The notes under the pieces were generated by a model that saw nothing but the letters and a program-made list of their open reading frames with translations, searched no databases and was not told the DNA's origin. Source: Glutamicibacter sp. JC586 (lineage in GTDB: Bacteria; Actinomycetota; Actinomycetes; Actinomycetales; Micrococcaceae). From it: DNA of 64,000 nucleotides. Of this stretch, positions 11,573-64,000 are shown in pieces (the first letter of the stretch is position 1; every line of letters begins with the position of its first letter). The stretch spans positions 1 through 64,000 of the forward strand of contig NZ_VHIN01000021.1 of the NCBI RefSeq assembly GCF_009805585.1. Reading direction: 5' to 3'. The position numbers were made by a program, and so were the translations under genes.

Positions 11573-11586
11573 CTTTCGAAGGACCA

Positions 11587-28296: not shown

Positions 28297-28310
28297 TGGT
28301 CCTTCAAAAG

Positions 28311-28362
28311 TGTCTCGCAACTAATGGTGCAGACATGATTCTACGCCATTAGTTGCGACACA
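28311..28362. promoter_or_regulatory. res site of the intact resolvase
   Basis: Seventeen-bp arms (28311-28327 and 28346-28362, one mismatch) with the core CGCAACTAATGG flank an 18-bp centre, directly upstream of the resolvase start. A further GTTGCGAG half-site follows at about 28365. Probably both recombination site and promoter/operator. Confidence 0.6.
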
Positions 28363-37140: not shown

Positions 37141-37168
37141 AACCCCGGCGACACGCCGGGGTTTTTTG
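37141..37168 (+). terminator. Intrinsic terminator without an obvious upstream gene
   Basis: A perfect 10-bp stem (AACCCCGGCG / CGCCGGGGTT, loop ACA) followed by a T6 run. The nearest plus-strand gene upstream ends at 36080, with a minus-strand gene between, so this may end a small RNA or be left from a lost gene. Confidence 0.75.
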
Positions 37169-37228
37169 TTTCAGAAACGTCTTTCAAAACTGATTCATTG
37201 CACAACCTGGCTGTGTACCGTTTTTGAT

Positions 37229-37798
37229 ATGGCAGTCATTGGATATGCGCGAGTTAGTACGCGCGAGCAGAACCCGGAGTCGCAGGCGGCCGAGCTGCGC
37301 GCGGCCGGAGCAGGGCAGATATTTACTGACCGTGGGGAGTCGAGCAGGGAGGCTGCGCGGCCGCAGTGGGTGGCGTGCAAGGCGCAATTGAAGCCGGGGG
37401 ATACGCTGATCATCCGTGCCCTGGATCGCGTGGCCGGTGAAGAGCGAATGGCCATTGAGATTATCCGCGAGCTGGGGGAGCGTGGCGTGAGGATCAAAAG
37501 TCTTACTGAGCCGTTTTTGGACGTGGACATATCTACGCCGATGGGCGAAGCCATTGTGGGCATCATGGCGGTTATGGCGCAGCTGCGCGTTTCTATGATC
37601 CGGGAGAACACCCGCCGGGGTTTGGCGCATGCGCGCGCCCAGGGCCGCGTCGGAGGCCGGCCGCGCGTCATGGATGCAGACCGCATCGACACAGCGCGGC
37701 AGCTGCGCGAAGAGGGGAAGAGTTATGCGCAGATCGGCAAGATTCTTGGTGTCAGTGCAGCGAGTATTTACCGTTCGTTATCGAGCGAAAATCGTTGA
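37229..37798 (+). CDS. Serine recombinase with altered active-site motif
   Basis: A 189-residue protein beginning MAVIGYARVSTREQ (S10 nucleophile). Conserved parts: F-T-D-R-G-E-S-S, D-T-L-I-I-R-A-L-D-R, S-M-I-R-E-N-T-R-R-G-L and a C-terminal HTH (YAQIGKILGVSAASIYRSL). Where nearly all resolvases have L-D-R-L-G-R-S, it reads L-D-R-V-A-G-E, so the second Arg of that motif is replaced by Gly. Such forms exist on actinobacterial plasmids. It may be a plasmid resolvase with modified activity. It ends 68 bp before the antitoxin/zeta pair. Confidence 0.85.
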   Translation: MAVIGYARVSTREQNPESQAAELRAAGAGQIFTDRGESSREAARPQWVACKAQLKPGDTLIIRALDRVAGEERMAIEIIRELGERGVRIKSLTEPFLDVDISTPMGEAIVGIMAVMAQLRVSMIRENTRRGLAHARAQGRVGGRPRVMDADRIDTARQLREEGKSYAQIGKILGVSAASIYRSLSSENR

Positions 37799-40158: not shown

Positions 40159-40542
40159 GTGGCTGAGCGGAAACGTCAGGCGAACATCGGCGGTGGCCGT
40201 AGGGTCGTTCGCCAGTTGAAGCTTTCCGTCGCCCAGGACACCGCTTTACGCGTTCACGCCGACGAACTTGGAGTGAGCGTTCAGCGGCTTCTTGTTGAAT
40301 CAACCTTGTCCGCTTTTCAGGGTGAAACGGTCACCGAACGGCGGGACTTGTTGACAGCCTTGTTCCAGTTGCAGCGCGGCCTTGCCGCTGCGGGAAACAA
40401 CATTAACCAAATTGCCCGTGTCGCAAATGCAACCGGTGAAATCAAGGACGAGCTGCATGGCTCCTTGGAGCATCTGCGTGCGACGGTGGCGCGCATTGAT
40501 GAGGTCTTGGAGTCGTTGAAGATCGTGGGAGAGCCGTCATGA
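40159..40542 (+). CDS. mobC: MobC-like relaxosome protein
   Basis: A 127-residue protein. The GTG at 40159 has GGAAGGA at proper distance; an ATG at 40153 would be too close to it. Basic N-terminus, then a ribbon-helix-helix-like part (R-Q-L-K-L-S-V-A-Q-D-T-A-L-R-V-H-A-D-E-L-G-V) and the MobC signature L-F-Q-L-Q-R-G-L-A-A-A-G-N-N-I-N-Q-I-A-R. MobC opens DNA around the nick site and helps the relaxase. Its stop overlaps the relaxase ATG (ATGA). Confidence 0.85.
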   Translation: MAERKRQANIGGGRRVVRQLKLSVAQDTALRVHADELGVSVQRLLVESTLSAFQGETVTERRDLLTALFQLQRGLAAAGNNINQIARVANATGEIKDELHGSLEHLRATVARIDEVLESLKIVGEPS

Positions 40543-42041
40543 TTCCGAATGTCACTCGTGGTGGCCGCATGGCCGGTTTGATGAATTACCTGGTCGGGCC
40601 TGGCCGCTCTAATGAGCATGAAAATCAGCGGCTCATTGCCGGAGATGATCGCGTGACTTTCGCTTACGCTCCTGGCGCTGAATTGTCGAAGTACGATGCT
40701 TTTGAAATTGCCGAGCTGCTGGATGCGCCGCGCAAAGTGCACGGGACGGAAGTGACCAAGCCGGTGTATGCGAAAGACGAAGAATCCGGCGAGTTCTTCA
40801 AGGATGAAAACGGCAAGAAGATCCGCACCGGGTCGAAGGATGCGCACGTGTGGCATTGCTCCCTGGCTGTTGAATCCGGGTACGGTTCAGTGCCCGATGA
40901 ACAATGGGAAAAGATCGCGGCATCCTTCGTGGAAAAGATGGGTTTCATTGACCCGGACGGTGCGAAATCATCGCGCTGGGTAGCGATTCATCACGGCGCA
41001 TCGAAGAACGGCAACGACCACCTTCACTTGGTGGTGTCGATGGTCCGTGAGGACGGGAGCAAGGCGAACACACATAATGATTTTCACCGCGCCCAGGTCG
41101 CGTGCCGCGAACTAGAAGTTGAGTACGGGTCGCCACGTTTGGAGTCCCAGGAACACGGCAAGGGGCTGGCAGGGGAGAAGCCGGCAGAACGTGCGAGGGC
41201 CGAGCGCGGAAGTAACGCGCTGTCGGATAAGTTCGAGTTGCGTCGTCGTTTGCGGGCCGCATTATCCACCGCGAACAGTGCGGAAGAGTATGTTCGTCAT
41301 GCCCAAGATTTGGGCGTGCGAATCGCTCCGAGCTTCAAGCCTGGATCGAACAGTGAAGTGCGCGGCTATCGTGTGTCTCTAGGTGAACGTGGCAGCGATG
41401 ACAAGGTGATTTGGTATGCACCATCCAAGCTCGATTCCACACTGGCTTGGAATGATATTCACGCCCGGTACGGGAATAGGGATCGGGCTGCGGGGGACGC
41501 GTATTTGGTGTCTTTGCATTCCTCGAACCAGTCGCGCGAGCATCGCAAGGCGGTGGCTCGTCCGGTGTCTGCGGAGCAACTGGATCGGATGATGAGTCAC
41601 AAGACGGGACCGGATACGTTGGCGAATGTTTATGCCCGCTTGTCGTTGCAGTTCGAGCGCAACAAGCCAGGGACTTTCAACCAGCTTTCCGAGTCCTACG
41701 CACGTGCTGCGCAGGGCGGTGGCAACGTACGGTATGCGGCTCGTTTGAATGAACGGTTCAGGTCTGGTCGCGGTTATGGTTGGGTTGCTTTGGCGAAGCA
41801 AGCTGGGCGTTTAGGCCGCGTGATGATGCAGAACCATATGGCCACGGATCGGCCCCGTTTTGTCGCTGGGGTTGATCGGCTGATCAATGATGCTGAAAGC
41901 ATCGTGAATGCTGAAATGAAACGTATCCAGGCGCAGGACGCACAGAAAGTGGGTGCGCCGAAGCAGCCACATGTGCCCTACCGGGATTGGGACGCCGGGG
42001 CACAGCCTGGACCAGGGAATGACCAAGGTTACGAACGATAG
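40539..42041 (+). CDS. Mobilisation relaxase
   Basis: A 500-residue protein. Candidate motif I Tyr17 lies in L-M-N-Y-L-V-G-P-G; motif III is A-I-H-H-G-A-S-K-N-G-N-D-H-L-H-L-V-V (H151/H152, H161, H163), the metal-binding His triad of rolling-circle relaxases. The middle and C-terminal parts are charged helices. Such relaxases cut one strand at oriT, bind it covalently and are pumped by a coupling ATPase such as TraG. This makes the element mobilisable. It is followed by two further transfer-associated genes. Confidence 0.88.
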   Translation: MIPNVTRGGRMAGLMNYLVGPGRSNEHENQRLIAGDDRVTFAYAPGAELSKYDAFEIAELLDAPRKVHGTEVTKPVYAKDEESGEFFKDENGKKIRTGSKDAHVWHCSLAVESGYGSVPDEQWEKIAASFVEKMGFIDPDGAKSSRWVAIHHGASKNGNDHLHLVVSMVREDGSKANTHNDFHRAQVACRELEVEYGSPRLESQEHGKGLAGEKPAERARAERGSNALSDKFELRRRLRAALSTANSAEEYVRHAQDLGVRIAPSFKPGSNSEVRGYRVSLGERGSDDKVIWYAPSKLDSTLAWNDIHARYGNRDRAAGDAYLVSLHSSNQSREHRKAVARPVSAEQLDRMMSHKTGPDTLANVYARLSLQFERNKPGTFNQLSESYARAAQGGGNVRYAARLNERFRSGRGYGWVALAKQAGRLGRVMMQNHMATDRPRFVAGVDRLINDAESIVNAEMKRIQAQDAQKVGAPKQPHVPYRDWDAGAQPGPGNDQGYER

Positions 42042-44661: not shown

Positions 44662-45630
44662 ATGACGCTGACGCAACTCGAAGCATTTCTATGCGCTTCT
44701 GAACTGGGGACTTTCACGGCCGCAGCCGCCCACCTGGATATGAGCCAACCAGCGATTTCAGACCTCATCCGCAGGCTTGAACAGGAACTCAAAGCCCCAC
44801 TGTTCCATCGAGGTTCTCGTTCTCTGGTGTTGACCGCTGCCGGCGAGCAGCTTCTGCCACATGCGCGACAATCGGTAGCCTCCGCTGCGCAAGGGCGAGA
44901 AGCGGTCCTGTCGCAGATGAGTTTGGCCGGTGGAACAGCGACCTTCGGCCTCTTGCGAAACGCCGACTACTATCTCAAAACTGATCTGGCGATGAAGTTC
45001 CGGCGTCAGTACCCAAAGGTCAACATTCGTCTGGTCGGCCAAAACAGTTCCGAAACTGCGTCAGACGTAGCATCCGGAGTTCTGGAAGCCGGTCTGCTCA
45101 CCCTCCCAATTGATGATGAGGGACTCGAAATCCTGCCAATTGCCAGGGACGAGCTTCTGTGCGCCAGCGCCTCGAAACAACGAGTAAGCTCGGCTCGTGC
45201 ATTCGAGGATTTTTTGGCCACTGATCTGGTTTTGTACGATGCTCACTACCCGTCGACCGATCCCGTGCGACGCCAGCTAAATGAACAAGCCCAGTTGATT
45301 GGTAAGTCGGTCATGCCAGAAATCGAAGTTGAGTACCTCTCAACAGCGATTTCATTGGTTGCTGCGGGCTTCGGCGACACGATCTTATGCCAAGCCTCTG
45401 TTTCATCCCTAGATCAAGGTCTTGGAATTCACACGATTCCCTTTGAGACCCCAATTTTTGATGTGCTCGCGCTAGTCAAACGCACTGGAACTATACTCTC
45501 TCCCGCTACCCGTGAGTTGGCACGCCTGGCAGTTGACTCCTTAATGGAGCATCAAAAGGGCAAGGATGGAACGGCAGAAATTCTGGCTACAGAAAACCAA
45601 ATCGAGCGCTTCCTAGATGTCACCCTTTAA
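44662..45630 (+). CDS. LysR-family regulator 1 of the catabolic island
   Basis: A 322-residue protein. N-terminal HTH begins M-T-L-T-Q-L-E-A-F-L and includes G-T-F-T-A-A-A-A-H-L-D-M-S-Q-P-A-I-S-D-L-I-R-R-L-E; the C-terminal part is a LysR substrate domain. It is clearly paralogous to the regulator at 52278 (same L-x-x-R-Y-P-K-V, V-R-L-V-G and D-A motifs). It converges with aspA across a strong terminator. LysR proteins respond to small molecules, typically pathway intermediates. Confidence 0.92.
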   Translation: MTLTQLEAFLCASELGTFTAAAAHLDMSQPAISDLIRRLEQELKAPLFHRGSRSLVLTAAGEQLLPHARQSVASAAQGREAVLSQMSLAGGTATFGLLRNADYYLKTDLAMKFRRQYPKVNIRLVGQNSSETASDVASGVLEAGLLTLPIDDEGLEILPIARDELLCASASKQRVSSARAFEDFLATDLVLYDAHYPSTDPVRRQLNEQAQLIGKSVMPEIEVEYLSTAISLVAAGFGDTILCQASVSSLDQGLGIHTIPFETPIFDVLALVKRTGTILSPATRELARLAVDSLMEHQKGKDGTAEILATENQIERFLDVTL

Positions 45631-45647
45631 CCTGTACAGTTAAATGC

Positions 45648-45684
45648 CACAGCATCCGGCCGAAATAATCGGCCGGATGCTGTG
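45648..45684. terminator. Strong bidirectional terminator
   Basis: A perfect 16-bp stem (arms 45648-45663 and 45669-45684, loop AATAA) between the convergent LysR gene and aspA. Confidence 0.8.
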
Positions 45685-45700
45685 ATGTCATTCGTGCTCG

Positions 45701-47086
45701 TTACCCGGGAATTGGGCTAAGCGCACGCTCTACAAAGTGGTCAACTTCTTCGCGTGTGAGCAGCCCCTGTTCCACAATCAGATCGGTCACCCGAGAATCG
45801 GTGGCCAACGCCTCGGCTGCGATGGCCGTGGACGTGGTGTAACCGAGTACCGGTGAAAAGACCGTCACCATGCCAATATTGGCTTCGGCCAGTTCCCTAA
45901 GCCGCTGTGGATGCGCCATAATTCCGCTCACGCAATCTACCGCCAAGGAATCAGCTGCTATTGCCAAATGCGTCAAGCCACGTAGCAAGCTGTAGGCGAT
46001 GATCGGCTCAAATGCGTTGAGCTGCAGTTGCCCTGCTTCGGCAGCCATGGAGATGGTCATGTCATTTCCGATAATGGAGAACGCCACCTGATTCACCATT
46101 TCGGGAATGACCGGGTTCACCTTACCGGGCATGATGCTGGATCCTGCTTGCATCGCCGGCAGGCTAATCTCACCAAAACCGGTTCGTGGTCCAGAGGACA
46201 GCAACCGTAAATCATTACAGACCTTGGAGAGCTTAATAGCAGTACGTTTCAGCGTCCCTGACATGAGTACAAAAGCACCACAGTCCTGGGTCGACTCGAT
46301 GAGATTAGGCGCGGTCAATAACGGAAGACCAGAAATTTTCCTCAAGTGTTCTCGCACTGCCGGAGCAAAATCTGGATGCGCGTTGATTCCCGTGCCGATA
46401 GCTGTTGCACCTAGATTAATCTCATGAAGATGCGCCAGCGCCTCGCGTAGCCGTGCGATATCTTCAAGAATCATGACCTGGTAGGCCCCAAACTCTTGGC
46501 CCATGGTCATCGGTACCGCGTCTTGCAGCTGGGTACGACCCACCTTCACCACGTCGGCGAATTCATCGGCTTTCACCTTGAATGCCGCTGCCAGCCGTTC
46601 CAAGGAATCAATCAAGAGGTGTGTCGTGTAGATCGTCGAGAGCTTCAGCGCCGTGGGATACACGTCGTTGGTCGACTGTCCTTGATTTACATGCTCGTTG
46701 GGGTGCAGCACCGAGTACTGTCCAAAACTGTGACCAAGATGCTCCAACGCGGCATTGGCAATAACCTCATTGGCATTCATATTGGTCGAGGTGCCAGCAC
46801 CACCCTGGATCAGACTCACCGGGAACTGGTCGTCCAGTTCCCCGTCAATCACTCGTTGGCAAGCAGCAGCGATGGGCGCAACCGTCGATTCGTCAAGCAC
46901 TCCCAAGTCTCGATTGGCCAGTGCGGCAGCCAACTTGACCTGGCCCAAAGCACGGACTAGTTCCCTGCTCTGACCCACCGTTTCAACGGGTAAAGGGAAG
47001 TTCTCGGTGGCACGTAGCGTGTGAATTCCCCAGTAGGCAGAGTCCGGGACCTCTCGTGTACCGAGCAGGTCATGCTCTTGGCGCAC
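45701..47086 (-). CDS. aspA: Aspartate ammonia-lyase
   Basis: A 461-residue member of the aspartase/fumarase superfamily. Motifs: E-H-D-L-L-G...Y-W-G-I-H-T-L-R-A, S-T-N-M-N-A-N-E-V, H-P-N-E-H-V-N-Q-G-Q-S-T-N-D-V and the flexible loop G-S-S-I-M-P-G-K-V-N-P-V with the catalytic Ser. G-I-H-T-L-R-A near the start favours aspartase over fumarase. I chose the GTG at 47086, whose first base is the last base of the hisD stop (TAG/GTG) and which has AAGGA upstream; an ATG at 47113 is possible. It deaminates aspartate to fumarate and ammonia. Tight coupling to a HisD-type dehydrogenase suggests it handles that enzyme's product. Confidence 0.9.
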   Translation of the reverse strand: MRQEHDLLGTREVPDSAYWGIHTLRATENFPLPVETVGQSRELVRALGQVKLAAALANRDLGVLDESTVAPIAAACQRVIDGELDDQFPVSLIQGGAGTSTNMNANEVIANAALEHLGHSFGQYSVLHPNEHVNQGQSTNDVYPTALKLSTIYTTHLLIDSLERLAAAFKVKADEFADVVKVGRTQLQDAVPMTMGQEFGAYQVMILEDIARLREALAHLHEINLGATAIGTGINAHPDFAPAVREHLRKISGLPLLTAPNLIESTQDCGAFVLMSGTLKRTAIKLSKVCNDLRLLSSGPRTGFGEISLPAMQAGSSIMPGKVNPVIPEMVNQVAFSIIGNDMTISMAAEAGQLQLNAFEPIIAYSLLRGLTHLAIAADSLAVDCVSGIMAHPQRLRELAEANIGMVTVFSPVLGYTTSTAIAAEALATDSRVTDLIVEQGLLTREEVDHFVERALSPIPG

Positions 47087-48399
47087 TATGCACGGTCCTT
47101 GGCTGCAGCCCACTCTGGCAGGGTGTCTGCTGCGCGAGCTGCGCGAGCGTCGCCGGAACGAGCGTGGCCTTCAAAGTTTTCAGCGCGAGCGGCACGCCCC
47201 AACAGCACACCAAGCTCAGCCGAGGCATCCAAGCTGGTCACTTCCTGATAGGTGACGGTCTTGAGGAACTTGCCGACCCACAGGCCGCCGGTGTAGCGAG
47301 CAGCGTGACGGGTAGGAAGCACGTGGTTGGTGCCGATGACCTTGTCGCCGTAGGAGACACAGGTGTTCTCGCCCAAGAAGAGGGCACCGTAGTTGGTGAG
47401 CTTCTCTAGGGCGTCGCGCAGGTCCTCGGTGAAGATCTGCACGTGCTCGCTGGCGAACTCATCGGAGATCTTGTAGGCCTCTGCAAGATCGTCGGCGACG
47501 ATGACCTGGCCGTGATCGCGCCATGCAGCTCCCGCGATTTCAGCGGTTGGTAGGTTCTTGAGCTGCTCGTCGATTTCGGCGAGAACTTCATGGCCAACTC
47601 GCTCGGAGGTGGTGACCAGGATTGCTGGTGAATCTGGCCCGTGCTCTGCCTGGCTGAGCAGGTCTACTGCGGTTAGGAATGGATCTGCCGAGTCATCGGT
47701 CAGGATTAGCACTTCGGTCGGACCTGCGAACAGGTCGATGCCCACTTCACCGAACAGCTGGCGCTTGGCTTCGGCAACAAAGGCGTTACCCGGGCCTACC
47801 AGAACGTCGACGCGGTCGATGCTTTCGGTTCCAACAGCCAGTGCTGCTACTGCCTGCACGCCGCCGAGCAGGTAGATCTCATCGGCACCGGCCAGGTGAA
47901 TCGCGGCGATCGATGCATCTGGAATCTTTCCGTCTGGCGCTGGGGTGGCAGCAGCAACGCGCTGAACACCGGCAACCTTGGCGGTCACGATGGTCATATG
48001 TGCTGAGGCCAGCAGCGGGTAACGGCCGCCAGGGATGTAGGCGCCAACGGAGTTCACTGGGATGTTCTTCTGGCCCAGGAAAACACCTGGCTGAACTTCA
48101 GCTTCAAAGTCGGTCAGCGACTCACGCTGAAGCTTTGCGAAGCGGCGCACGTTCTCCTGCGCGGTTTTGATGTCCTCGATGGTCTGCGCTGGAACGCGTG
48201 CGATCGCAGCGCTGATTTCTTCTTGGCTCAAGCGCAATGTGCCCGGAGTGAACTTGTCGAACTTTTGCGAGTATTCGCGCACGGCTTCGTCGCCACGCTC
48301 GCGAATGTCGGCAATGACCGAAGCGACAGTTTCACGCACCGAGTCCGAAGAAGTGGTTGCGATTACCTCGACCTGGGCGTTTTTAATGTTGGTAGCCAT
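47086..48399 (-). CDS. Histidinol dehydrogenase family enzyme 1
   Basis: A 437-residue HisD-family protein outside any histidine operon. Residues corresponding to the Zn ligands and bases of HisD are present: S-Q-A-E-H-G (Gln, His), A-S-E-H-V-Q (Glu-His base pair), Y-G-D-K-V-I-G-T-N-H-V-L-P-T (Asp) and E-G-H-A-R-S near the end (His). HisD makes a four-electron NAD-dependent oxidation of an amino alcohol to an amino acid; relatives oxidise other alcohols, e.g. sulfopropanediol (HpsN). Location with aspartase and a permease points to a catabolic amino-alcohol or hydroxy-amino-acid substrate. Substrate unknown. Confidence 0.88.
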   Translation of the reverse strand: MATNIKNAQVEVIATTSSDSVRETVASVIADIRERGDEAVREYSQKFDKFTPGTLRLSQEEISAAIARVPAQTIEDIKTAQENVRRFAKLQRESLTDFEAEVQPGVFLGQKNIPVNSVGAYIPGGRYPLLASAHMTIVTAKVAGVQRVAAATPAPDGKIPDASIAAIHLAGADEIYLLGGVQAVAALAVGTESIDRVDVLVGPGNAFVAEAKRQLFGEVGIDLFAGPTEVLILTDDSADPFLTAVDLLSQAEHGPDSPAILVTTSERVGHEVLAEIDEQLKNLPTAEIAGAAWRDHGQVIVADDLAEAYKISDEFASEHVQIFTEDLRDALEKLTNYGALFLGENTCVSYGDKVIGTNHVLPTRHAARYTGGLWVGKFLKTVTYQEVTSLDASAELGVLLGRAARAENFEGHARSGDARAARAADTLPEWAAAKDRA

Positions 48400-48465
48400 G
48401 GATGGTTCCTTTTCTTGCTCAGACCAGCTGGGCTGGTCAATGGTTTTGTAAAAATTCAGGGGTAG

Positions 48466-49929
48466 TTAGTTCGCTGAAACTGAAATTTTCGAACGACGCT
48501 GAACGATGAAGCCAGCGATGACAGCCAGCACGGTGACAACGGCGCTGGTCAGAATCTCCAGCAGTCGCTGCTCGCCGGCGAAGAACATGTACACCAGCAG
48601 TGCACTCAGCGCACAAATCACGATCCAGTTCACGACCGGGAAGCCCCACATACGGATGACTCCCGAGACCGTATGCACATCCACTCCGTGGGACAGCAGG
48701 ATCTTGCGGCTTCGTAGCTGTGATACCGCGATGACGATCCAGAACAAGATGGCCAGAGCACCGGTGGAGTTGACCAAGAAGGTGAAGACATAATCTGGTG
48801 CGGTGTAGTTCAAGACCACGCAGATCAGTCCTAGGAGTACCGAGAACCATATGGCCGCCGCCGGCGCTCCACGTTTGGAGACCTTGGCCAAAATTGCCGG
48901 TCCCTCCTTGCGTGCGGATAAAGAGAAGGCCATACGCGAGGAGGTGTAGAGCGAAGCGTTGAGCGTGGAGAGAATTGCGGTCAGAACGATGGCATCCATC
49001 ACGGTGCCAGCCCAACCAATACCTGCAACATTCAACGCAGTGACAAATGGGCTGGTTCCCGAGGTGAATGAATCCCACGGAACCACTATCAGCAACACGA
49101 TCATTGAGCCGATGTAGAACAGTAAGATACGGGTAACAACCGAATTGACCGCCTTGCGGACCGCCTGTTGCGGGTGCTCAGATTCACCGGCGGCAATCGT
49201 CGCCACTTCGGCTCCGAACATCGAGAAAACCACAGGAAGCAGAGCGGCCAGCAAACCGCTGATACCAAAGGGAAGGAATCCTCCGTGACCTTCGCCGCGA
49301 ATGTTTCCTAGGGTGGCAGAGTCATTCGGGATGATATGGAAGATCAACATCAACCCCACCATAAGGAAGACCACAATAGCGGCGATCTTGATGGAGGAGA
49401 GCCAGAATTCCAGCTCGCCGAAGGACCTAACCGAGGCAAGATTGATCCCGAGGAAAACGAGAGTGACGACCAGCGCAGCTACCCACTGAGGGAAATCCGG
49501 TAGCCAGGTGGAGATGATGTTGGCTGCTGCCGTTGCCTCGATACCGACGACGACTCCCCAGTACCACCAGTACAACCAACCCACCGAGGTACCTGCCCAA
49601 CGGCCAATAAAACGGCCCGCGTAGGCGGAGAACGATCCGGTTTCAGGTGAAACTGATGCCATTTCACCCAACATGCGCATCACCAGAACGACCAGCACAC
49701 CCGCCACGAGATAGGTCAAGATAACGCCGGGGCCCGCAGAGAGAATGGCGGTGCTAGAAGCCACCAATAGACCTGCTCCAATGACTCCGCCCAAAGCGAT
49801 CATCGAAAGATGCCGTGGCTTGAGAGTATGTGCCAGACCATTGGACCGGGGGTGCTTGTGTCCTTCGATTTCGGTGGTCACCTGACGGCTCCCGCGCTGA
49901 GATTCATCCCAGTCTTGTTGCTGTGTCAT
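48466..49929 (-). CDS. Amino acid permease, APC superfamily
   Basis: A 487-residue protein with twelve predicted membrane segments. The start R-H-L-S-M-I-A-L-G-G-V-I-G-A-G-L-L and the E-x-A-S/S-P-E-T-G-S-F-S pattern are typical of the AAT/GABA-permease group. The first 35 residues are polar and cytoplasmic. It lies 66 bp upstream of the HisD-1 gene in the same direction, so permease-hisD-aspA form one operon. Predicted import of an amino acid or amine that this pathway degrades. Confidence 0.9.
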   Translation of the reverse strand: MTQQQDWDESQRGSRQVTTEIEGHKHPRSNGLAHTLKPRHLSMIALGGVIGAGLLVASSTAILSAGPGVILTYLVAGVLVVLVMRMLGEMASVSPETGSFSAYAGRFIGRWAGTSVGWLYWWYWGVVVGIEATAAANIISTWLPDFPQWVAALVVTLVFLGINLASVRSFGELEFWLSSIKIAAIVVFLMVGLMLIFHIIPNDSATLGNIRGEGHGGFLPFGISGLLAALLPVVFSMFGAEVATIAAGESEHPQQAVRKAVNSVVTRILLFYIGSMIVLLIVVPWDSFTSGTSPFVTALNVAGIGWAGTVMDAIVLTAILSTLNASLYTSSRMAFSLSARKEGPAILAKVSKRGAPAAAIWFSVLLGLICVVLNYTAPDYVFTFLVNSTGALAILFWIVIAVSQLRSRKILLSHGVDVHTVSGVIRMWGFPVVNWIVICALSALLVYMFFAGEQRLLEILTSAVVTVLAVIAGFIVQRRSKISVSAN

Positions 49930-50080
49930 TTTTGCTCCATCTTCGGTATCGCAGATCTGTGCCCTTGTGTGGCAGACAAATTATTCGGCGCCGGCAACTA
50001 CGATGTGGCACTGAACACTTTTTGAAGTGTACAGATTTGCACTTACATAAGACAACGGACAGTTATCTTAGAAAAGGCAT

Positions 50081-50102
50081 AAGTTAAACTTATGTTTAAC
50101 TT
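50081..50102. promoter_or_regulatory. Inverted repeat operator upstream of the permease operon
   Basis: A perfect 9-bp inverted repeat (AAGTTAAAC / GTTTAACTT, 4-bp centre) about 150 bp before the permease start; a second overlapping dyad CATAAGT / ACTTATG covers 50078-50094. It is probably an operator for one of the nearby LysR regulators or for the lost GntR protein. The rest of 49930-50393 holds no recognisable gene. Confidence 0.5.
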
Positions 50103-50326
50103 TATGCATCATTTTCCGCTCTTACTGCTCAAGACCCTGATCGCCCACCTCCGGCCATCCAGCGATTTTGCTTATAATTGATGGTTTATGTTGCAGTAGA
50201 TCGCCACGCATTTTGCTTGGAAAATATCAGCCGAACGACGGTCTTCTGGACTCTGCAGAGACTTGAATTTTTCTTGCGTAACCTCCAGGGCAAAGAAAAG
50301 AGCGCCCACTATGGAGGCTCAGATCG

Positions 50327-50347
50327 TCCACTGAGATAAACAGTGGA
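50327..50347. terminator. Small hairpin after the Cys-rich peptide gene
   Basis: A 7-bp stem (TCCACTG / CAGTGGA, loop AGATAAA) 47 bp downstream of the small peptide gene on the minus strand. Weak terminator candidate. Confidence 0.35.
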
Positions 50348-50393
50348 AGCGTAATCAGATTAATTAAGACATGCAACGGACTGTTGCTAAGAA

Positions 50394-50513
50394 CTAGTCG
50401 CTTTCCGGACCGGTGCAGAAATGACAGTCATCGTCACAGACGATAACTTCCTCATGCTGCGACGCATCATCTGAGCGCGACTCGATGGTCTGCACTGCGT
50501 TTAAAGAGGACAT
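50394..50513 (-). CDS. Tiny acidic Cys-rich peptide
   Basis: A 39-residue frame from the ATG at 50513, with a strong SD (AGGAG, 7 bp spacing). The N-terminal half is polar (MSSLNAVQTIESRSDD), and the last 15 residues contain three Cys among acidic residues: V-C-D-D-D-C-H-F-C-T-G-P-E-S-D. It lies 199 bp downstream of HisD-2 in the same direction and 580 bp before the permease operon. The leader-plus-Cys-core layout resembles a ribosomally made, modified peptide precursor, but no modifying enzyme is seen; a metal-binding mini-protein is an alternative. Confidence 0.55.
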   Translation of the reverse strand: MSSLNAVQTIESRSDDASQHEEVIVCDDDCHFCTGPESD

Positions 50514-50711
50514 AAGATACTCCTAGAAATTCGGAATTCGACGGCGCCTTAGCTCAGGCGCGTGTTTCTGCGTCCGATCGCGAATAAAATAACAACTCAC
50601 AGGCGGTCGGATGCTCCTGCTAAAATCGGCTAATAAAACCAACAGGCAAGCCAAGTGATCCGCAGGAGGCACAAATCCAAAGCTTGCCCGTTGGCAACTC
50701 AAGCCGCTCAA

Positions 50712-52031
50712 TTAGCTATTGAATCGGTCCAAACGCAGGGTAGCGGTCGCACGGTGCGCCTCCATACCTTCAAACTCGGAGATTGAGGCAACATAGTTGG
50801 CCAGGCGAGGGGTGGCTTCCTTCTCCACACGCTGGAACGTCAATGGCTTCAAGAAGCGCGACACCGACAAGCCAGCTGATGACTTAGCACCGCGACCGGT
50901 TGGAAGGACATGGTTGGTGCCCGAAATTCCCTTATCCGAGTAGGCAACGGTGGACCATGCACCCAGGAAAATGGAACCGTAGTTTTTCAGATTGTCGTGG
51001 TACCACGCGTCATCTGAGGTCTGGATTTCCAGGTGCTCCGGGGCCAACATATCCATGATCTCAGCTGCGGTTTCGCGATTCTCGGCCAGATATACGGTGC
51101 CGTAATCACGCCATGCTGGGCCTGCGATGTTGCGGGTCGCCAGCGTCTCTAGCTGTTTCTCGATCTGCTTGATGACTGCTTCGCCAAAGGTGCGATCGGT
51201 GGTGACCAGCGATGCCGGGGACAGAACTCCGTGCTCGGCCTGACCAAGCAGGTCGGCTGCAACCAGTTCTGGGTCGGCGGTTTCATCAGCGATGACTGCA
51301 ACTTCGGATGGACCGGCTAACAGGTCGATACCAACGCGACCGAAGAGCTGACGCTTAGCCTCGGTGACATAGGCATTGCCTGCGCCTACCAAGATATCGG
51401 CAGGTTGCTCCCCGAGCAGGCCAAAGGCCATAGCGGCCAAGGCCTGGACACCGCCTACAGCGAAAGCACGGTCAACGCCGGACAGGTACGCAGAGTGCAG
51501 AACTGCCGGGTGACCACCGGTTGGGCTGGTTGGAGGAGTACATGCGATCACCGTTGGTACGCCGGCAGCCTTCGCGACACCCACCGTCATGAATGCGCTG
51601 GCCAAGATCGGGAACTGACCTGCAGGCAGGTATGCTCCCACGCGTGGAACCGGGGTGTAACGCTGTCCAGCGAAGACGCCGGGAAGAATCTCGGTCTCAA
51701 AGTCGGTCAGGTGCTCTCGCTGTTCAACAGCGAACAACCGAGTTCGCTCTGCACCCGCGGCCAACGCCTCGCGCAGCTGAGGAGAAAGCTCATCGCCAGT
51801 CTTCGCAAGCTGTGCCTGGCTGATTTCGATATCTTTCCCCTCCCACCCATCTAGCTTCTGCGAATACTTGATTACGGCATCGATGCCGTTCTTTTCAATG
51901 TCGCTGAGCATTGCTGAAACCGTTTCGATCACGGCTGGCAGACGTTGGGCAGGAACGCCACCAACCTCTGGAGTCTTGAGAGCTTCGAATTTTCCGTTGA
52001 TGAATGCCTTGTCGGCTTCGTTGATTTGCAT
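50712..52031 (-). CDS. Histidinol dehydrogenase family enzyme 2
   Basis: A 439-residue HisD paralogue from the ATG at 52031 (an in-frame GTG lies 36 bp upstream). It keeps the family residues: G-Q-A-E-H-G, A-P-E-H-L-E-I, Y-S-D-K-G-I-S-G-T-N-H-V-L-P-T, and E-A-H-R-A-T near the C-terminus. It differs widely from HisD-1, so the two likely act on different steps or stereoisomers. It is divergent from LysR-2, its probable regulator. Confidence 0.88.
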   Translation of the reverse strand: MQINEADKAFINGKFEALKTPEVGGVPAQRLPAVIETVSAMLSDIEKNGIDAVIKYSQKLDGWEGKDIEISQAQLAKTGDELSPQLREALAAGAERTRLFAVEQREHLTDFETEILPGVFAGQRYTPVPRVGAYLPAGQFPILASAFMTVGVAKAAGVPTVIACTPPTSPTGGHPAVLHSAYLSGVDRAFAVGGVQALAAMAFGLLGEQPADILVGAGNAYVTEAKRQLFGRVGIDLLAGPSEVAVIADETADPELVAADLLGQAEHGVLSPASLVTTDRTFGEAVIKQIEKQLETLATRNIAGPAWRDYGTVYLAENRETAAEIMDMLAPEHLEIQTSDDAWYHDNLKNYGSIFLGAWSTVAYSDKGISGTNHVLPTGRGAKSSAGLSVSRFLKPLTFQRVEKEATPRLANYVASISEFEGMEAHRATATLRLDRFNS

Positions 52032-52277
52032 GGCACTAACGCTAAGGAAGACTCGACAATCGCACAACCCGATATTTCACTATAGAAACCATCGGGTGAA
52101 ACGATGGAAATTCAACCTTCATCGACCCATGAACCGCTCAAATTTGCGGGAAAATCAAGTCAGTTAACCTCAATTAGACCATGTCCCAGCTCACTACAAA
52201 TGCGGTCTTTTGGCGATTGCTTCATCAAAAACTTTTCTCATCAACAGAAAGTTGAGCCTCTGTCATAGACTTTTGCC

Positions 52278-53201
52278 GTGACACTCACCCAGCTCAAGGC
52301 CTTTCTCGCCTCTTACGACCTCGGCTCATTTACTGCTGCCGCAAACCACTTGGATACCAGTCAGGCCTCGGTGTCGGAACTGATCTCGCGCCTGGAACAA
52401 GAAGTGGGCCTGAGTCTGTTCACCCGAGGAAGTCGACGCCTCAAACCCACCAATGCGGCAGTCGAACTGCGTGAGCACGCCCAACAGGCAGTGACCGCAT
52501 TCGATAACGGGATTCAGGCGCTCAAGTCCATATCCTCCCTTGACGGCGGCGTATGCACTTTCGGAGTGATGCGGAATGCTAGTTATTACGACCTTTCTGA
52601 CTTGGTGCAGCGATTTCACAAGCGCTACCCCAAGGTCAAGGTTCGCCTAGTTGGCCTGAACTCATCGGTCGTAGCCGAGTCAGTAGCCAACGGAGAGATT
52701 GAGGCAGGACTGGTAGTCCTGCCTGTTCCGGACGAAGACCTGGTGATCAAACCGCTGTTCCGCGATGAGGTGGTTTACGTGTCAACCACTCGAAGCCCAC
52801 GCCAAGGACCGATGAGCATCGAGGAGTTCGCCTCCTCCAAGGTTGTGCTCTACGACGCCTACGCCGGATGGAATGACCCAACCCGAAAGCAGCTTCAGGA
52901 ACGCGCTAGCCTCAAAGGGCTCCGTCTGGATCCTGACATTGAGGTCGAGCATGTTGAAACGGCTCTCAGCCTGGCATCCACCGGGGCGGCTGGCACCATC
53001 GTTTGTCGAACAATCGCCGAGGGACCAGGTTTTCCAAAAAACCTGAAGATTGTTCCTTTTTCAGAACCGCTCTACGACACTCTCGCATTGGTGCAGCGTG
53101 AGTCCTCCTATCTCTCCCCTGCCACTCAAAAAATTGCACAGTTGGCCGAGGGCACACTGATGGCCAAGGTTCGCCCCGAACAAGAACTGCCGATTCGCTA
53201 A
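52278..53201 (+). CDS. LysR-family regulator 2 of the catabolic island
   Basis: A 307-residue protein from a GTG at 52278, starting M-T-L-T-Q-L-K-A-F-L-A-S-Y-D-L-G-S-F-T with HTH T-S-Q-A-S-V-S-E-L-I-S-R-L-E. Paralogue of LysR-1. Divergent from HisD-2 with about 245 bp between starts, the standard arrangement for a LysR protein controlling its neighbour and perhaps the downstream transporter operon. Confidence 0.92.
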   Translation: MTLTQLKAFLASYDLGSFTAAANHLDTSQASVSELISRLEQEVGLSLFTRGSRRLKPTNAAVELREHAQQAVTAFDNGIQALKSISSLDGGVCTFGVMRNASYYDLSDLVQRFHKRYPKVKVRLVGLNSSVVAESVANGEIEAGLVVLPVPDEDLVIKPLFRDEVVYVSTTRSPRQGPMSIEEFASSKVVLYDAYAGWNDPTRKQLQERASLKGLRLDPDIEVEHVETALSLASTGAAGTIVCRTIAEGPGFPKNLKIVPFSEPLYDTLALVQRESSYLSPATQKIAQLAEGTLMAKVRPEQELPIR

Positions 53202-58964: not shown

Positions 58965-60101
58965 TTGAACATCTCTTCAATCCCTAACCCTGATCTGGCA
59001 GTCACCTTTGACGACAAGCCCAACTGGGAAGTCTCGGACAATCGCCGTGCGGGTTGGCATAATCTGCCCACGACCACCCGCTATTCAATGACTCTGCGCG
59101 CCGAAGGTATTAGTCCGTTGAGCAAGGAGATTAACTGGAAGATTGGCGACCGCTCAGATGTGTCACGGTTCCTCGCGGTATCGCATTTCTCTGCCTTCGC
59201 CGTGGTCCGTGGCGACCGGGTAATTTTTGAGTCTTATGCCCCAGATTTTGGCCCCCAGCAAACTCATTCCGTCCAGTCCATCACGAAAACCCACCTGAAC
59301 CTCATGCTCGGTCGGGTGGTTGCCGACGGCCTGGTTGACCTTGATGAAAAGGTCGGTATCTATCTTCCAGAAATCGGTTCTGCCTACGCCAATGCCACGG
59401 TACGCGATGTGTCGAATATGAACATCGAGAACGACTACACCGAGGACTGGAGTGATCCAAACTCTTTGGTCTTTGATATGGATGCTGCCATCGGCTGGCG
59501 ACCACCACGCGAAGGCCAGAATGAGAAGCCGCTGCGTGAGTTCCTGTGTGGGCTCACCGGCAGCGATCTGACGAACCATGGCGGGGAGCTGAACTACAAG
59601 TCCGCCAATACCGAGATTTTAGCCTGGATTGTCGAGCGTGTAAGTGGCCGTCCGCTGCGGGATTGGCTGCTCGAAATTGTTGAAGCGGCCGGATATGAAG
59701 GGTGCTTCCATATCAGCTGCGACCGCGTCGGGGTTCCCATCCTTGCCGGCGGAGTTGCACTGACAGCCCGAGACCTGGCCCGCTATGGTTTGCTCTTTGC
59801 CCGAGGCGGCGAAGGTGTTGATGGGCGGAAGGTTGGAGACGCTCAATTCATAGAAGAAACCCGCAAGTCAACCGTGGGTCCAACGTGGGAAACTGCCAGT
59901 GGTTACATGCGCTACAACCGTGCCATGTTCACCAATGGCACATTCCTCGGTCACGGCGGCTGGGGCGGCCAGTACCTGCTAGTCAACCCTGATACTGATA
60001 CCGCGGTAGTTTACTTCAGCGTGCTCGAAAATCGCACCGCTGAGGACCTAGAATTCTTTGCGCCTTTGATCGAAATGATGGACTCCGTCGCCGCCAGCTA
60101 G
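58965..60101 (+). CDS. Serine hydrolase of the beta-lactamase/NylB type
   Basis: A 378-residue cytoplasmic protein from a TTG at 58965 with GAAAGG upstream. Motifs: S105-I-T-K108 (nucleophile Ser, base Lys), Y211-K-S and H-G-G-W-G-G-Q near 330, which together match class C beta-lactamase-like amidases and esterases such as 6-aminohexanoate-dimer hydrolase. No signal peptide. Located right after the importer genes, it probably splits the imported compound at an amide or ester bond. Confidence 0.87.
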   Translation: MNISSIPNPDLAVTFDDKPNWEVSDNRRAGWHNLPTTTRYSMTLRAEGISPLSKEINWKIGDRSDVSRFLAVSHFSAFAVVRGDRVIFESYAPDFGPQQTHSVQSITKTHLNLMLGRVVADGLVDLDEKVGIYLPEIGSAYANATVRDVSNMNIENDYTEDWSDPNSLVFDMDAAIGWRPPREGQNEKPLREFLCGLTGSDLTNHGGELNYKSANTEILAWIVERVSGRPLRDWLLEIVEAAGYEGCFHISCDRVGVPILAGGVALTARDLARYGLLFARGGEGVDGRKVGDAQFIEETRKSTVGPTWETASGYMRYNRAMFTNGTFLGHGGWGGQYLLVNPDTDTAVVYFSVLENRTAEDLEFFAPLIEMMDSVAAS

Positions 60102-60195
60102 GTAAGGCAAACACCGGTGAAGGCGCTGTAGAGAATCACCCTGGACAGCGCCTTCTCTTTACCCACCAACCTCAACGATTGAAGGATGAGACACC

Positions 60196-61482
60196 TTGCA
60201 CCCCTGGCGCATCAAAGATCTGCAAGCCCAAGACCTCGACTCACTGATCGAACTATGGCACGCATCGCGTGACGGGCACCTGCACTCTGTGTACAGCATT
60301 TCCGATGTATTGACTGCCGGAGTTCAAGGCCATAGCGTTGGGGCCTTCGTTGGCACCGAACTAGTGGGCGCAGCCATCGCCCGAATCCAAGAAGATCGAG
60401 CGTGGATCCTCATGCTCGGTCAGGCCCCGGCATGGCGAAACCAGGGTCTTGGTAGCTGCCTGCTCAACGCACTCGAAGAAACTTTTAGTGGCACCAAAGT
60501 CGCCAAACTATGCGCCCTACTACCAGCGAGCGAAGACCGTTTTCAGGCCTTTCACAACAGCGGATTTGAACCCCAGGAAGAGGTGGTCTACTTTGAACAC
60601 TCGGTGCCGGTACCCCCACAAACCACCCAGACTCTTTTAAGGCTCGGTGGCACGCTGATGCCCCGCGGGCTATGGGATGAAGTTGCCGGAATGCGTGCGG
60701 AAAAAGAACTGATCGAGCGACGACTCATCCTTCCCTTGGCTCAAGAGGAACTCGCCAAGTCGCTCGGGGTTATCCCACCGCGAGCCGTTGCGCTCTTCGG
60801 GCCTCCTGGGACAGGAAAGACCACCTTCGCCAAGGCCGTAGCCTCCCGCTTGGGCTGGCCCTTTATCGAGGTTTTCCCCTCCCGTCTGGCAGCCGATCCG
60901 TCCGGACTCGCCGCGGCCCTGCGCCAGACCTTTAGCGAGATCGCACACCTAGAACATGCTGTGGTGTTCATCGACGAGGTCGAGGAGATCGCCGCACGAC
61001 GCAGCGAAACTTCGCCTTCCCCCCTGCAGTCAGTGACCAACGAACTGCTCAAGACCATCCCGGCCTTCCGTGCCAAGGAGGGACGGTTGCTGATCTGTGC
61101 CACCAACTTCATCCGGTCTCTGGATCATGCATTCTTGCGCCACGGCAGATTCGACTATGTCATTCCCATCGGACTTCCCGATTTTGCCGCACGCCAAGCT
61201 ATCTGGGCTCGATACATCCCAGAATCCGCTCGTGATCTGGTAAATCTAGCCATCCTCGCCCAGCACACCGAGCGTTTTTCCCCGGCCGATATTGAGTTTG
61301 CGGCCCGCAAGGCCTCCCAATGTGCCCTCGAAGAGTCCGTCTACGGCACTGCCAAGAACGATGCCCCGGAACTATTGCATACCGCTAACTATCTCGAAGC
61401 CATCGCACAAACGCAGGCCACCGCCAGCGAAGAAACCATCAACGACTTCCGCGCAGACATCACGGCTCTCGGTCGAATCTAG
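60196..61482 (+). CDS. GNAT acetyltransferase-AAA+ ATPase fusion
   Basis: A 428-residue protein from a TTG at 60196 with GAAGGATGA upstream. Residues about 1-135 are a GNAT domain (strands E-L-V-G-A-A-I-A-R-I and I-L-M-L-G-Q; acetyl-CoA loop R81-N-Q-G-L-G86; F-Q-A-F-H-N-S-G-F-E). After a linker, residues about 160-420 are an AAA+ module: Walker A G202-P-P-G-T-G-K-T, Walker B V-F-I-D-E-V-E-E (D260, E261), sensor-1 A-T-N (N304), R315/R318 as Arg-finger candidates and a C-terminal lid. It resembles the CDC48/FtsH/Rubisco-activase class. A fused GNAT-AAA+ is unusual. Role may be ATP-driven remodelling of a partner enzyme together with acetylation. Confidence 0.85.
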   Translation: MHPWRIKDLQAQDLDSLIELWHASRDGHLHSVYSISDVLTAGVQGHSVGAFVGTELVGAAIARIQEDRAWILMLGQAPAWRNQGLGSCLLNALEETFSGTKVAKLCALLPASEDRFQAFHNSGFEPQEEVVYFEHSVPVPPQTTQTLLRLGGTLMPRGLWDEVAGMRAEKELIERRLILPLAQEELAKSLGVIPPRAVALFGPPGTGKTTFAKAVASRLGWPFIEVFPSRLAADPSGLAAALRQTFSEIAHLEHAVVFIDEVEEIAARRSETSPSPLQSVTNELLKTIPAFRAKEGRLLICATNFIRSLDHAFLRHGRFDYVIPIGLPDFAARQAIWARYIPESARDLVNLAILAQHTERFSPADIEFAARKASQCALEESVYGTAKNDAPELLHTANYLEAIAQTQATASEETINDFRADITALGRI

Positions 61483-61529: not shown

Positions 61530-63344
61530 ATGCTGTATCTCAAACGACGATTGCTGGCGATAGCAGTCCTAGCGGCCATGGCCACGACCTGCACCGTTGC
61601 TATCAGCCCGGCCATTGCACAACCTCGCCAGGTCGAGAAAATACCCACCGCCACCGGCTATGGTGGATCGGTCAGCACCGTGGACCCTGAAGCCTCGGCG
61701 GCCGCGATGAGCATACTACGCAAGGGAGGTAACGCGGTTGATGCTGCGGTCGCGGCGGCTGCCACTTTGGGCGTCACCGAACCCTACAGCGCTGGCATAG
61801 GAGGCGGCGGCTACTTTGTATACTACAACGCCAAAACCGGCAAGGTCAGAACCATCGACGGTCGCGAAACCTCTCCATCGGCAATGCCCACGGATGCCTT
61901 CAACGATCCTGCCACCGGGGCACCCTACAATTTCACCCCGGAGTTGGTCACCAGCGGGGTGGCAGTGGGCGTACCAGGAACCCCAGCCACGTGGGACCGT
62001 GCGCTAAAACGTTGGGGAACGATGAGTTTGTCCCAGACCCTGAAGCCGGCCATCAAGGTCGCGAAAGCAGGATTTGTGGTTGATCAAACCTTCCGCGATC
62101 AGACCCTCGAAAATAAGCTGCGCTTCAATACTTTCACTTCTACCCAGGACCTGTTCTTGCCCGGAGGTGACGCACCTGCCGTCGGCAGCATTTTCAAGAA
62201 TCCCGACATCGCCAAGACCTACAGCCTGCTGGCCAAAAAGGGAACGGACGCGTTCTACACCGGCCAGGTGGCCCAAGACATCGTGGATTCGGTGACCCGT
62301 CCACCGCTCTCTGGAGACACCGATCTGCCTGTACCGGTGGGCTTCATGTCCACCGATGATCTTGCCGCATACAAGAGCATCGACCGCGCCCCGACCCATG
62401 TGTCATATCGCGGACTGGACGTATACGGCATGGCTCCTTCCAGTAGCGGTGGGACCACGGTAGGTGAGGCCTTGAATATTCTGGAAGGTTATGACCTGAA
62501 GAGCATGCCGACCGAGGAAGTCCTTCACCACTACGTTGAGGCCGCCTCGCTGGCCTTCGCGGACCGGGCTGCTTACGTCGCCGACCCCGCGTTCGTCAAC
62601 ATTCCGCAAAAGGCCCTGACCGACCAGCTCTTCGGCCAGGAACGCGCCTGCAACATTGATTCGGCGACCGCCGGGACCAAACCATTCGCCCCGGGTGATG
62701 TCACCTCCTACGACGGCAAATGCCCGACCTCGACGGTGGCATCCGGCGATGAGACGGACACTGAAAACATCTCCACCACTAACCTGACCGTCGCTGACCG
62801 ATGGGGCAACGTCGTTGAATATACGTTGACCATCGAACAGACCGGCGGATCAGGCATCGTTGTCCCTGAACGTGGTTTCCTGCTGAATAATGAACTCACC
62901 GACTTTAGCCCGACCGGACCTAACCGGATCGAGCCGAATAAGCGCCCCCGTTCCTCTATGTCACCAACGATCGTGCTGAAAGATGGCGCACCATACCTGG
63001 CCCTGGGCTCGCCTGGTGGATCGACCATTATTACTACCGTGCTGCAAACGCTGGTGAACCGTGTAGATCGTGGAATGAACATTTCCCAGGCCGTCGCTGC
63101 CCCTCGCGCAGCACCTTGGAATGGACCAAGCGTCACCGCCGAACCAGAGTTCATCGAACAGTACGCAAGCAAACTAAAACTCTTCGGCCACGATTTCTAC
63201 CCGTCGGGTGATTCCTTTACCGCCGAAGCCGAAATTGGTGCGGCCACCGCCATCGAGTTCGGTCCGAACGGGTTGCAAACCGCCGTTGCTGAACCCACTC
63301 GTCGTGGTGGCGGATCGGCATTGGTTCTGAAACCAGCTAAGTAG
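61530..63344 (+). CDS. ggt: Secreted gamma-glutamyltransferase
   Basis: A 604-residue protein, ATG at 61530 after TAGGAGG. Signal peptide ends at A-I-A near 30. GGT hallmarks: R-K-G-G-N-A-V-D-A-A-V-A, G-I-G-G-G-G-Y-F-V, S-S-S-G-G-T-T-V-G-E, and the N-terminal nucleophile region E-N-I-S-T-T-N-L-T-V-A-D where the precursor is cut before Thr. The G-S-P-G-G-S-T-I oxyanion motif is present. GGT hydrolyses or transfers gamma-glutamyl groups outside the cell, e.g. from glutathione or gamma-glutamyl amines. Confidence 0.94.
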   Translation: MLYLKRRLLAIAVLAAMATTCTVAISPAIAQPRQVEKIPTATGYGGSVSTVDPEASAAAMSILRKGGNAVDAAVAAAATLGVTEPYSAGIGGGGYFVYYNAKTGKVRTIDGRETSPSAMPTDAFNDPATGAPYNFTPELVTSGVAVGVPGTPATWDRALKRWGTMSLSQTLKPAIKVAKAGFVVDQTFRDQTLENKLRFNTFTSTQDLFLPGGDAPAVGSIFKNPDIAKTYSLLAKKGTDAFYTGQVAQDIVDSVTRPPLSGDTDLPVPVGFMSTDDLAAYKSIDRAPTHVSYRGLDVYGMAPSSSGGTTVGEALNILEGYDLKSMPTEEVLHHYVEAASLAFADRAAYVADPAFVNIPQKALTDQLFGQERACNIDSATAGTKPFAPGDVTSYDGKCPTSTVASGDETDTENISTTNLTVADRWGNVVEYTLTIEQTGGSGIVVPERGFLLNNELTDFSPTGPNRIEPNKRPRSSMSPTIVLKDGAPYLALGSPGGSTIITTVLQTLVNRVDRGMNISQAVAAPRAAPWNGPSVTAEPEFIEQYASKLKLFGHDFYPSGDSFTAEAEIGAATAIEFGPNGLQTAVAEPTRRGGGSALVLKPAK

Positions 63345-63455: not shown

Positions 63456-64000
63456 TTAGCTGATGCTGCGTTCAACAGCAGTTTGTTCATAGTATTTTTG
63501 CGAGTCCTTCACATCCTGGGTGTAAGGCTTGGCCGAGTAATGCTGCAACTCGATGAGCCCTGCGGGCAGGCCGGAGCTGGTGAGGATTGCCCGACCTCGT
63601 GGCAAGGCAGCCAAGTCGGCCACGTCCAAGATCCGTTCGCGTTGCATCGAACTGGATACCGACCGCCCGGTGCGGTTACTGGTGCTGGAGGAGCGTTTGG
63701 GTACGTCGCGTTCACCGACGAGCTGGGCGAGGAACGGCAAGAACTTATCGTCAGACAAGCCGCTACCGGCGACTCGGATATTGGCCGCGCCCCAGAGCTT
63801 GTTCATACCCTTTTCGCCGTAGGCTTCCACGCCTTGGCTGTAGGACTGGAAGAACGTGGAGACGACGATGCCACGGGAACCGTAGTGTGAATACACGTCC
63901 GGTAGTTCGCGCCAGCGCACCACGTTCGCGGCTTCATCCAACACGGCCGTCAGTGGGGTTTTTAGCCGGCCCCCAGGCTGGCTGGCTGCGGTTTTCTCCG
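63456..64000 (-). CDS. traG: TraG/VirD4-type coupling ATPase, C-terminal part (cut by window edge)
   Basis: The visible 181 residues include L-D-E-A-A-N-V (Walker B like), Y-G-S-R-G-I-V-V-S-T-F-F-Q-S, W-G-A-A-N-I-R and S-G-L-S-D-D-K-F-L, then a tail with L-P-R-G-R-A-I-L. This is the C-terminal ATPase half of type IV coupling proteins (TraM-recognition/TraG-D family), which bring the relaxase-DNA complex to the transfer channel. The frame is open to the right edge; the rest is outside. Together with the MobC-relaxase set it indicates conjugative or mobilisable DNA on both sides of the catabolic island. Confidence 0.88.
   Translation of the reverse strand, partial: EKTAASQPGGRLKTPLTAVLDEAANVVRWRELPDVYSHYGSRGIVVSTFFQSYSQGVEAYGEKGMNKLWGAANIRVAGSGLSDDKFLPFLAQLVGERDVPKRSSSTSNRTGRSVSSSMQRERILDVADLAALPRGRAILTSSGLPAGLIELQHYSAKPYTQDVKDSQKYYEQTAVERSIS

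Follow-up and report, generated by a model that had tools for sequence, protein, structure and literature searches.

The protein encoded at positions 60196-61482 of the window (the whole 64,000-nucleotide stretch of a Glutamicibacter contig that was analysed) joins a GNAT acetyltransferase to a classic AAA ATPase, and is almost certainly a member of an actinobacterial GNAT-AAA family. As carrier counts and existing plasmid annotation indicate, this fusion is an established and already named family that is common in actinobacteria. The reading we favour, tentatively and with somewhat less than even confidence, is that of a ring resembling Cdc48 and PAN in which a GNAT protein acetyltransferase serves as the N-domain and ATP would serve to remodel protein substrates, or to present them, by a route other than canonical threading.

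Architecture and distribution of the fusion

The gene and the features recognized in its product are the following.

60196-61482 (+): GNAT-AAA fusion gene, 428 amino acids, TTG start (reading frame and Pfam)
60196-60609 (+): GNAT domain, approximately residues 1-138, RimI/Ard1-like fold (Pfam, separate model, fold and profile searches)
60436-60453 (+): predicted acetyl-CoA pyrophosphate loop R81-N-Q-G-L-G86 (sequence and alignment)
60658-61479 (+): classic AAA module with lid and C-terminal helix, residues 155-428 (Pfam, sequence search, model and fold search)
60799-60822 (+): Walker A GPPGTGKT, residues 202-209 (alignment)
60871-60909 (+): pore-loop-1 region, residues 226-238 (VFPSRLAADPSGL), without aromatic-hydrophobic-glycine (alignment)
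60973-60978 (+): Walker B D260-E261 (alignment)
61105-61155 (+): sensor-1 N304 and the SRH arginines R315 and R318, to D320 (alignment)
61474-61476 (+): R427, second-last residue, Arg in all 137 aligned members (alignment)

The reading frame is complete, running from TTG to TAG over 428 open codons, and its start codon agrees with the homologues, which begin at approximately the same residue. Pfam identified a GNAT domain (PF00583, residues 43-104, 29.3 bits, cut-off 20.7) and a single AAA stretch in the 428 residues (PF00004, residues 199-326, 92.8 bits, cut-off 21.2), i.e. no tandem modules, the AAA lid (PF17862) scoring below threshold (24.8 bits, cut-off 27.2). An AlphaFold model computed from 31 aligned sequences (mean pLDDT 77.4, pTM 0.62) predicted by its secondary structure a whole GNAT domain (approximately residues 1-138), a linker, and the AAA module (155-428). 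The motifs that a sequence-only reading had listed in this one protein, namely a GNAT loop, Walker A and B, a sensor-1 asparagine and Arg-finger candidates, are indeed all present and aligned with those of its relatives (R81-N-Q-G-L-G86, GPPGTGKT, D260-E261, N304, R315, R318). Sequence and model alike support the view that one protein combines a complete classic AAA ATPase with what is plausibly an acetyltransferase.

Family-wide comparisons were based on an alignment of 137 members, comprising the window protein and 80 near, 28 phylum and 28 family loci; L081 (the window itself) and L116 (partial) were left out, and L103, whose N-terminus is lost at a contig end, lacks its first 50 or so residues. 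The best 80 relatives share 54-61% identity with the window protein and are all collinear with it (start at residue 1 or 4, end at 427 or 428). In a diverse set of 29 members, Pfam AAA was matched in 29 and Pfam Acetyltransf_1 in 28 (E 0.01), loop-lost members included. Pairwise identities of the two halves correlate at 0.96 across the 137 members, and the alignment establishes that the GNAT and AAA domains have been inherited jointly.

The combination had been described from the sequence as an unfamiliar pattern, a view the genome surveys overturn. Whole-genome searches at E 1e-40, in which the window's own genome was counted each time, identified the fusion in 54 of 197 genomes (13 of 32 genera) of the family, or about a quarter, and in 29 of 396 genomes (26 of 237 genera) of the phylum sample, or 7%, while within the genus the only carrier among 18 genomes was that of the window. 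At least 590 pattern matches were found among species genomes, and 550 of these encode a relative of some kind, possibly with AAA-only proteins among them. Furthermore, 22 plasmid records cover at least 80% of the fusion; three of the 60 plasmid matches listed carry the automatic name 'bifunctional GNAT family N-acetyltransferase/ATP-binding protein', while others are named GNAT family N-acetyltransferase. From this annotated actinobacterial family, with approximately the same length, the same domain order and 36-63% identity, the window protein differs in nothing structural, its distinction being that of a divergent lineage on a plasmid-like contig. We know of no published function for the GNAT-AAA fusion. 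A full-text literature search, beyond whose reach most subscription papers lie, returned no study of the family. A review of GNAT proteins, searched by word, contained no mention of AAA, ATPase, ATP-binding, TmcA or fused (PMC4964394).

The acetyltransferase head and the AAA motor

Among the matches listed for the full-length fusion (the best 60 of 295 and the best 50 of 1981), only AAA proteins occurred, and the GNAT half was therefore folded and searched alone. Its separate model (mean pLDDT 81.0) found its best fold matches in Ard1 (Sulfolobus, Thermoplasma), RimI and a NatC subunit (Z 17.3-16.9), the top matches of the VIA search having an rmsd of 1.9-2.3 over 130-136 residues; as the match at rank 50 still reached Z 15.2, this amounts to a weak preference. 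A profile search against PDB sequences placed YpeA first, followed mainly by N-alpha-acetyltransferases, with N-alpha-acetyltransferases 30 and 60, Ard1 and the GNAT domain of S. lividans PAT among the further matches. Fold likeness does not give the substrate, but the models make a protein amino group the likeliest target of the domain. The fold and the acetyl-CoA loop are common to the fusion, to YpeA and to the N-alpha-acetyltransferases of the RimI, Ard1 and NatC type, whereas in the fusion the GNAT domain is joined to a motor and the loop has been lost in one lineage.

The window loop RNQGLG fits the acetyl-CoA consensus R/Q-x-x-G-x-G/A. With R, Q, H or K accepted at position 81, G at 84 and G or A at 86, the loop was kept in 124 of the 137 members. 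Loss of binding residues in homologues, which the sequence-only reading had named as evidence against itself, thus applies to its acetyl-CoA part, the loop being degenerate in 13 members, and not to the ATP site, whose residues are kept. Nine of the 13 belong to one deep clade (support 100, thinned tree), and the others are L095, L108, L013 and L147, the last two retaining both glycines and failing at the first loop position only; on the full 137-row tree the losses need four changes. Acetyl-CoA binding through the usual loop has probably gone in one lineage of the family, and the degenerate loops suggest that some members probably serve a function other than acetylation.

The ATP site, by contrast with the degenerate acetyl-CoA loops, is invariant: Walker A from G202 to K208, D260, E261, N304, R315 and R318 are identical in all 137 members, and T209 in 136, with Ser in one. 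Mean pairwise identity is 0.62 in the GNAT domain and 0.76 in the AAA module, with one and 41 invariant columns, respectively. These identities, the invariant AAA residues and the loop losses indicate a tighter constraint on the motor than on the acetyltransferase.

The AAA part found its best match in a VCP-like ATPase by sequence and in proteasomal ATPase, Cdc48/p97 and PAN chains by fold, in each case among the matches listed. The AAA core, the SRH and the C-terminal helix are common to these proteins (Cdc48/p97, VCP-like ATPase, PAN) and the fusion, which differs from them in having one AAA module, a GNAT domain for the N-domain and no aromatic pore loop. Indeed, the aromatic-hydrophobic-Gly motif of pore loop 1 was found in none of the 137 members. 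The window has AADPSGL where another protein of the same genome (L082), which we take to be FtsH-like and which is the one control on which the comparison rests, has EMFVGVG (MFVG). The sole aromatic at residues 230-240 across the family is a Tyr in L093, and P228 is the same in all 137 members. Judging from known AAA mechanisms, this absence makes a conventional substrate grip through pore loop 1 unlikely in the GNAT-AAA family. The fusion thereby differs from the threading unfoldases FtsH, Mpa and PAN, which have an aromatic pore loop 1, and from the HbYX proteasome activators, whose C-terminal motif (hydrophobic-Tyr-X) occurs in none of the 137 members; the chain always ends one residue after the invariant second-last Arg (61474-61479 in the window).

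Proposed mechanism and related machines

In the reading we favour, the AAA modules, a single one of Cdc48/PAN type per chain, would form a ring carrying the GNAT domains on its N-terminal face, in place of the N-domain. The GNAT domains would bind protein substrates, with acetylation of an amino group in most lineages, and ATP hydrolysis would remodel or present the bound proteins. The missing aromatic pore loop suggests that whole chains would not be threaded as in FtsH, Mpa and p97. It counts against this proposal that numerous small molecules are likewise acetylated by GNAT folds, that the acetyl-CoA loop is degenerate in 13 members, and that no partner gene pointing to a substrate was conserved in the loci examined. 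Were ATP-dependent protein acetylation true, remodelling would be tied to acetylation, and we know of no bacterial link of that kind.

A bolder version, which we consider unlikely, makes the GNAT domain the head of an AAA machine of a new type, where it would read the substrate or a cofactor. Remodelling driven by ATP, through a pore lacking an aromatic grip, would be gated by acetyl-CoA binding or acetylation, and in one deep lineage the head would have become a pseudo-acetyltransferase that binds substrate only.

A different role, rather improbable in our estimation, would be that of a non-canonical proteasome-associated ATPase like Mpa or Cpa, with the GNAT domain as substrate receptor. The distribution of the 20S beta subunit lends it some weight, although the counts are raw and ignore phylogeny and genome size: the subunit was found in 50 of 54 carriers and 56 of 143 non-carriers of the family set (Fisher p 1.8e-12), and in 23 of 29 carriers and 132 of 367 non-carriers of the phylum set (p 6e-6), the excess being modest when family-set genera are counted (11 of 13 against 8 of 19, p 0.028). 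A control gene, narG, examined in the family set only, showed no clear excess (27 of 54 against 57 of 143, p 0.26; genera 9 of 13 against 9 of 19, p 0.29). This co-occurrence is suggestive, but a proteasome is not required, since the beta subunit is absent from the window's genome and from eight other carriers (three in the family set and five in the phylum set). In genus g257, some of whose genomes are incomplete, two carriers lack the subunit, three proteasome-bearing genomes lack the fusion, and one genome has both. The lack of HbYX ends and of an aromatic pore loop also speaks against such a role. In its favour, Cpa was reported to interact with the proteasome although its orthologues lack the HbYX motif (PMC6017811). 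Cpa is described there as an actinobacterial Cdc48-like protein with an N-domain, two AAA modules and no HbYX (PMC6017811); the fusion, likewise actinobacterial, Cdc48-related and without HbYX, has one AAA module.

The logic of TmcA, Kre33 and NAT10, in which a Walker-type ATPase and an acetyltransferase also share one chain, raises the prospect of an ATP-driven acetyltransferase of RNA or small molecules, which appears distinctly improbable. There is precedent for ATP dependence: when Walker A is mutated in Kre33/Nat10, RNA acetylation is reported to be reduced or lost (PMC6770127). The same study describes these enzymes as having a helicase-type motor, with the acetyltransferase after the motor, and RNA (tRNA and rRNA) as substrate (PMC6770127), so that both domain order and motor type differ from those of the fusion. 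Besides that, no TmcA-type domain (helicase, N-terminal) was matched among 11 Pfam families at E 0.001, and the nearest GNAT folds are, by a small margin, N-terminal protein acetyltransferases.

Genomic neighbourhood and origin of the window copy

Three features flank the fusion gene.

58965-60101 (+): beta-lactamase-fold serine hydrolase, upstream neighbour (Pfam; PDB sequence search)
60119-60155 (+): terminator-like hairpin between hydrolase and fusion, with perfect 11-base arms (GAAGGCGCTGT / ACAGCGCCTTC) and TCTTTA after it
61530-63344 (+): gamma-glutamyltransferase (GGT), downstream neighbour (Pfam, NCBIfam)

The position between a hydrolase and a GGT is as the sequence-only reading gave it. 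Its placement of the fusion inside a catabolic operon holds insofar as the three genes lie on the same strand, but the hairpin parts the hydrolase from the fusion. This hairpin is strong (-22.6 kcal/mol, z -4.24, none of 200 shuffles as stable), although its U-tract is weak and a consensus scan restricted to loops of at most 8 did not report it; given its position, the fusion and GGT may form a transcription unit apart from the hydrolase. The closest PDB sequence to the hydrolase is 6-aminohexanoate-dimer hydrolase, a nylon-oligomer hydrolase (124.8 bits). As a separate observation, the hydrolase gene adjoins a family-5 solute-binding ABC transporter, and an amide or oligomer catabolic cluster is possible. 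A second GGT, 67% identical to that of the window, lies on another contig of the genome (G000:C12:169212-171011).

That the fusion is a dedicated chaperone-modifier of a neighbouring enzyme, e.g. the GGT, as the sequence-only reading had proposed, is very unlikely. In the window GGT begins 47 bases downstream, and in 16 of the 80 near relatives, which do not group with the window, a GGT lies upstream and divergent, 202-1279 bases off by tblastn match ends. However, in the other 64 near loci tblastn found no GGT beside the fusion; six of them hold less than 2.5 kb upstream, and in L036 a weak GGT-like match lies at a greater distance. The 20 longer-flank phylum loci gave no GGT either. Moreover, the window GGT starts with what by eye is a signal-like hydrophobic stretch and is probably exported, whereas the fusion shows none.

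Neighbours otherwise vary from genome to genome among the loci listed, and no conserved partner gene was found in the 80 near and 20 distant longer-flank loci. Even among the listed gene families present in at least 8 loci, none immediately adjoined the fusion on either side in more than 14 of 77 loci, by a crude caller of neighbouring reading frames that missed the fusion itself in three of the 80 near loci and in L121, L124 and L125. A relative of the window's lyase gene occurs somewhere in the locus in 23 of the 80 near relatives. The comparison of domain order and neighbours that had been suggested thus finds the fusion common beside differing genes, and HisD, named as a possible partner, is no close neighbour in the window, the nearer of two HisD genes lying 8 kb away on the other strand. 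A dedicated role of the fusion in GGT or hydrolase function is not supported.

Both trees were built by a quick method and differ on the history of GGT adjacency. A thinned tree of 70 of the 137 rows, flagged for long branches, grouped the 16 chromosomal GGT-adjacent loci in one clade (98), with two changes for adjacency. Similar rows (difflib ratio of 0.90 or more to a retained row) had been dropped from it, while all 16 GGT-adjacent loci, the 28 phylum rows and six others were kept by choice, so that this tree favoured one GGT clade. On the full 137-row tree adjacency needs four changes, the 16 loci falling inside a set of 22 rows (16 with, two without and four unknown) with the window outside. 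In that count six short-flank near loci and 28 family loci (1.5 kb flanks) were unscored, and the 28 phylum rows were scored as without GGT, longer flanks covering 20 of them. The pairing of GGT with the fusion in separate lineages and different orientations is a minor point for which we have no explanation.

An IetA-type anti-phage ATPase is scarcely credible: the AAA part is matched by the PADLOC model of IetA at 98.3 bits (residues 178-401), by that of TRIP13 at 68.2 bits and by the NCBIfam anti-phage ATPase model at 92.6 bits, but the last score is far below the curated cut-off of 510, generic models score higher (PAN 133, CDC48 126, FtsH 108 bits), and the adjacent hydrolase and GGT provide no protease partner, which IetA-kind systems have. 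We rejected a defence-system identity, the PADLOC and NCBIfam matches being confined to the generic AAA part.

The contig itself carries three genes of interest.

20370-21155: ParA-like ATPase
40539-42041: relaxase
63456-63998: TraG/TraD-type coupling protein, partial (Pfam)

With these three genes, the contig looks like a plasmid or an integrated mobile element. The genome holds one full-length copy of the fusion, its other matches being to the AAA part only. The window copy represents a divergent lineage by its identities, its nearest relatives being L137 (63%) and L001-L004 (59-61%), which form with it a set of six on the thinned tree (SH-aLRT 95). Three assemblies hold both a member of this lineage and a common-lineage copy: Arthrobacter sp. 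ISL-65 (L001 and L067), Arthrobacter sp. ISL-28 (L003 and L054) and A. pascens DSM 20545 (L004 and L042). Their second copies are 93-95% identical to the common-lineage L021 and 59-60% identical to the first copies. The window copy is of plasmid type and probably laterally acquired, and we infer a lateral spread of this accessory lineage. Beyond its family membership on a plasmid-like contig, the window copy itself adds little.

Two records of the survey deserve separate mention. The fusion of a record titled Sporosarcina (Bacillota; L080) is nested among Arthrobacter in the tree, its assembly being probably mislabelled or contaminated, and identical fusion proteins (L106 and L107) occur in genomes of different families (f9 and f18), possibly through a binning error in one. 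On the contig, reading frames resembling serine recombinases of resolvase type were noted by eye at 6954-7568, 11524-12201, 27715-28320 and 37166-37798. Two genes of the histidinol-dehydrogenase family share the stretch 44662-53201 with those for an amino-acid permease, a fumarase/aspartase-type lyase and a LysR-type regulator, and by eye another LysR-like gene lies at 52278-53201.
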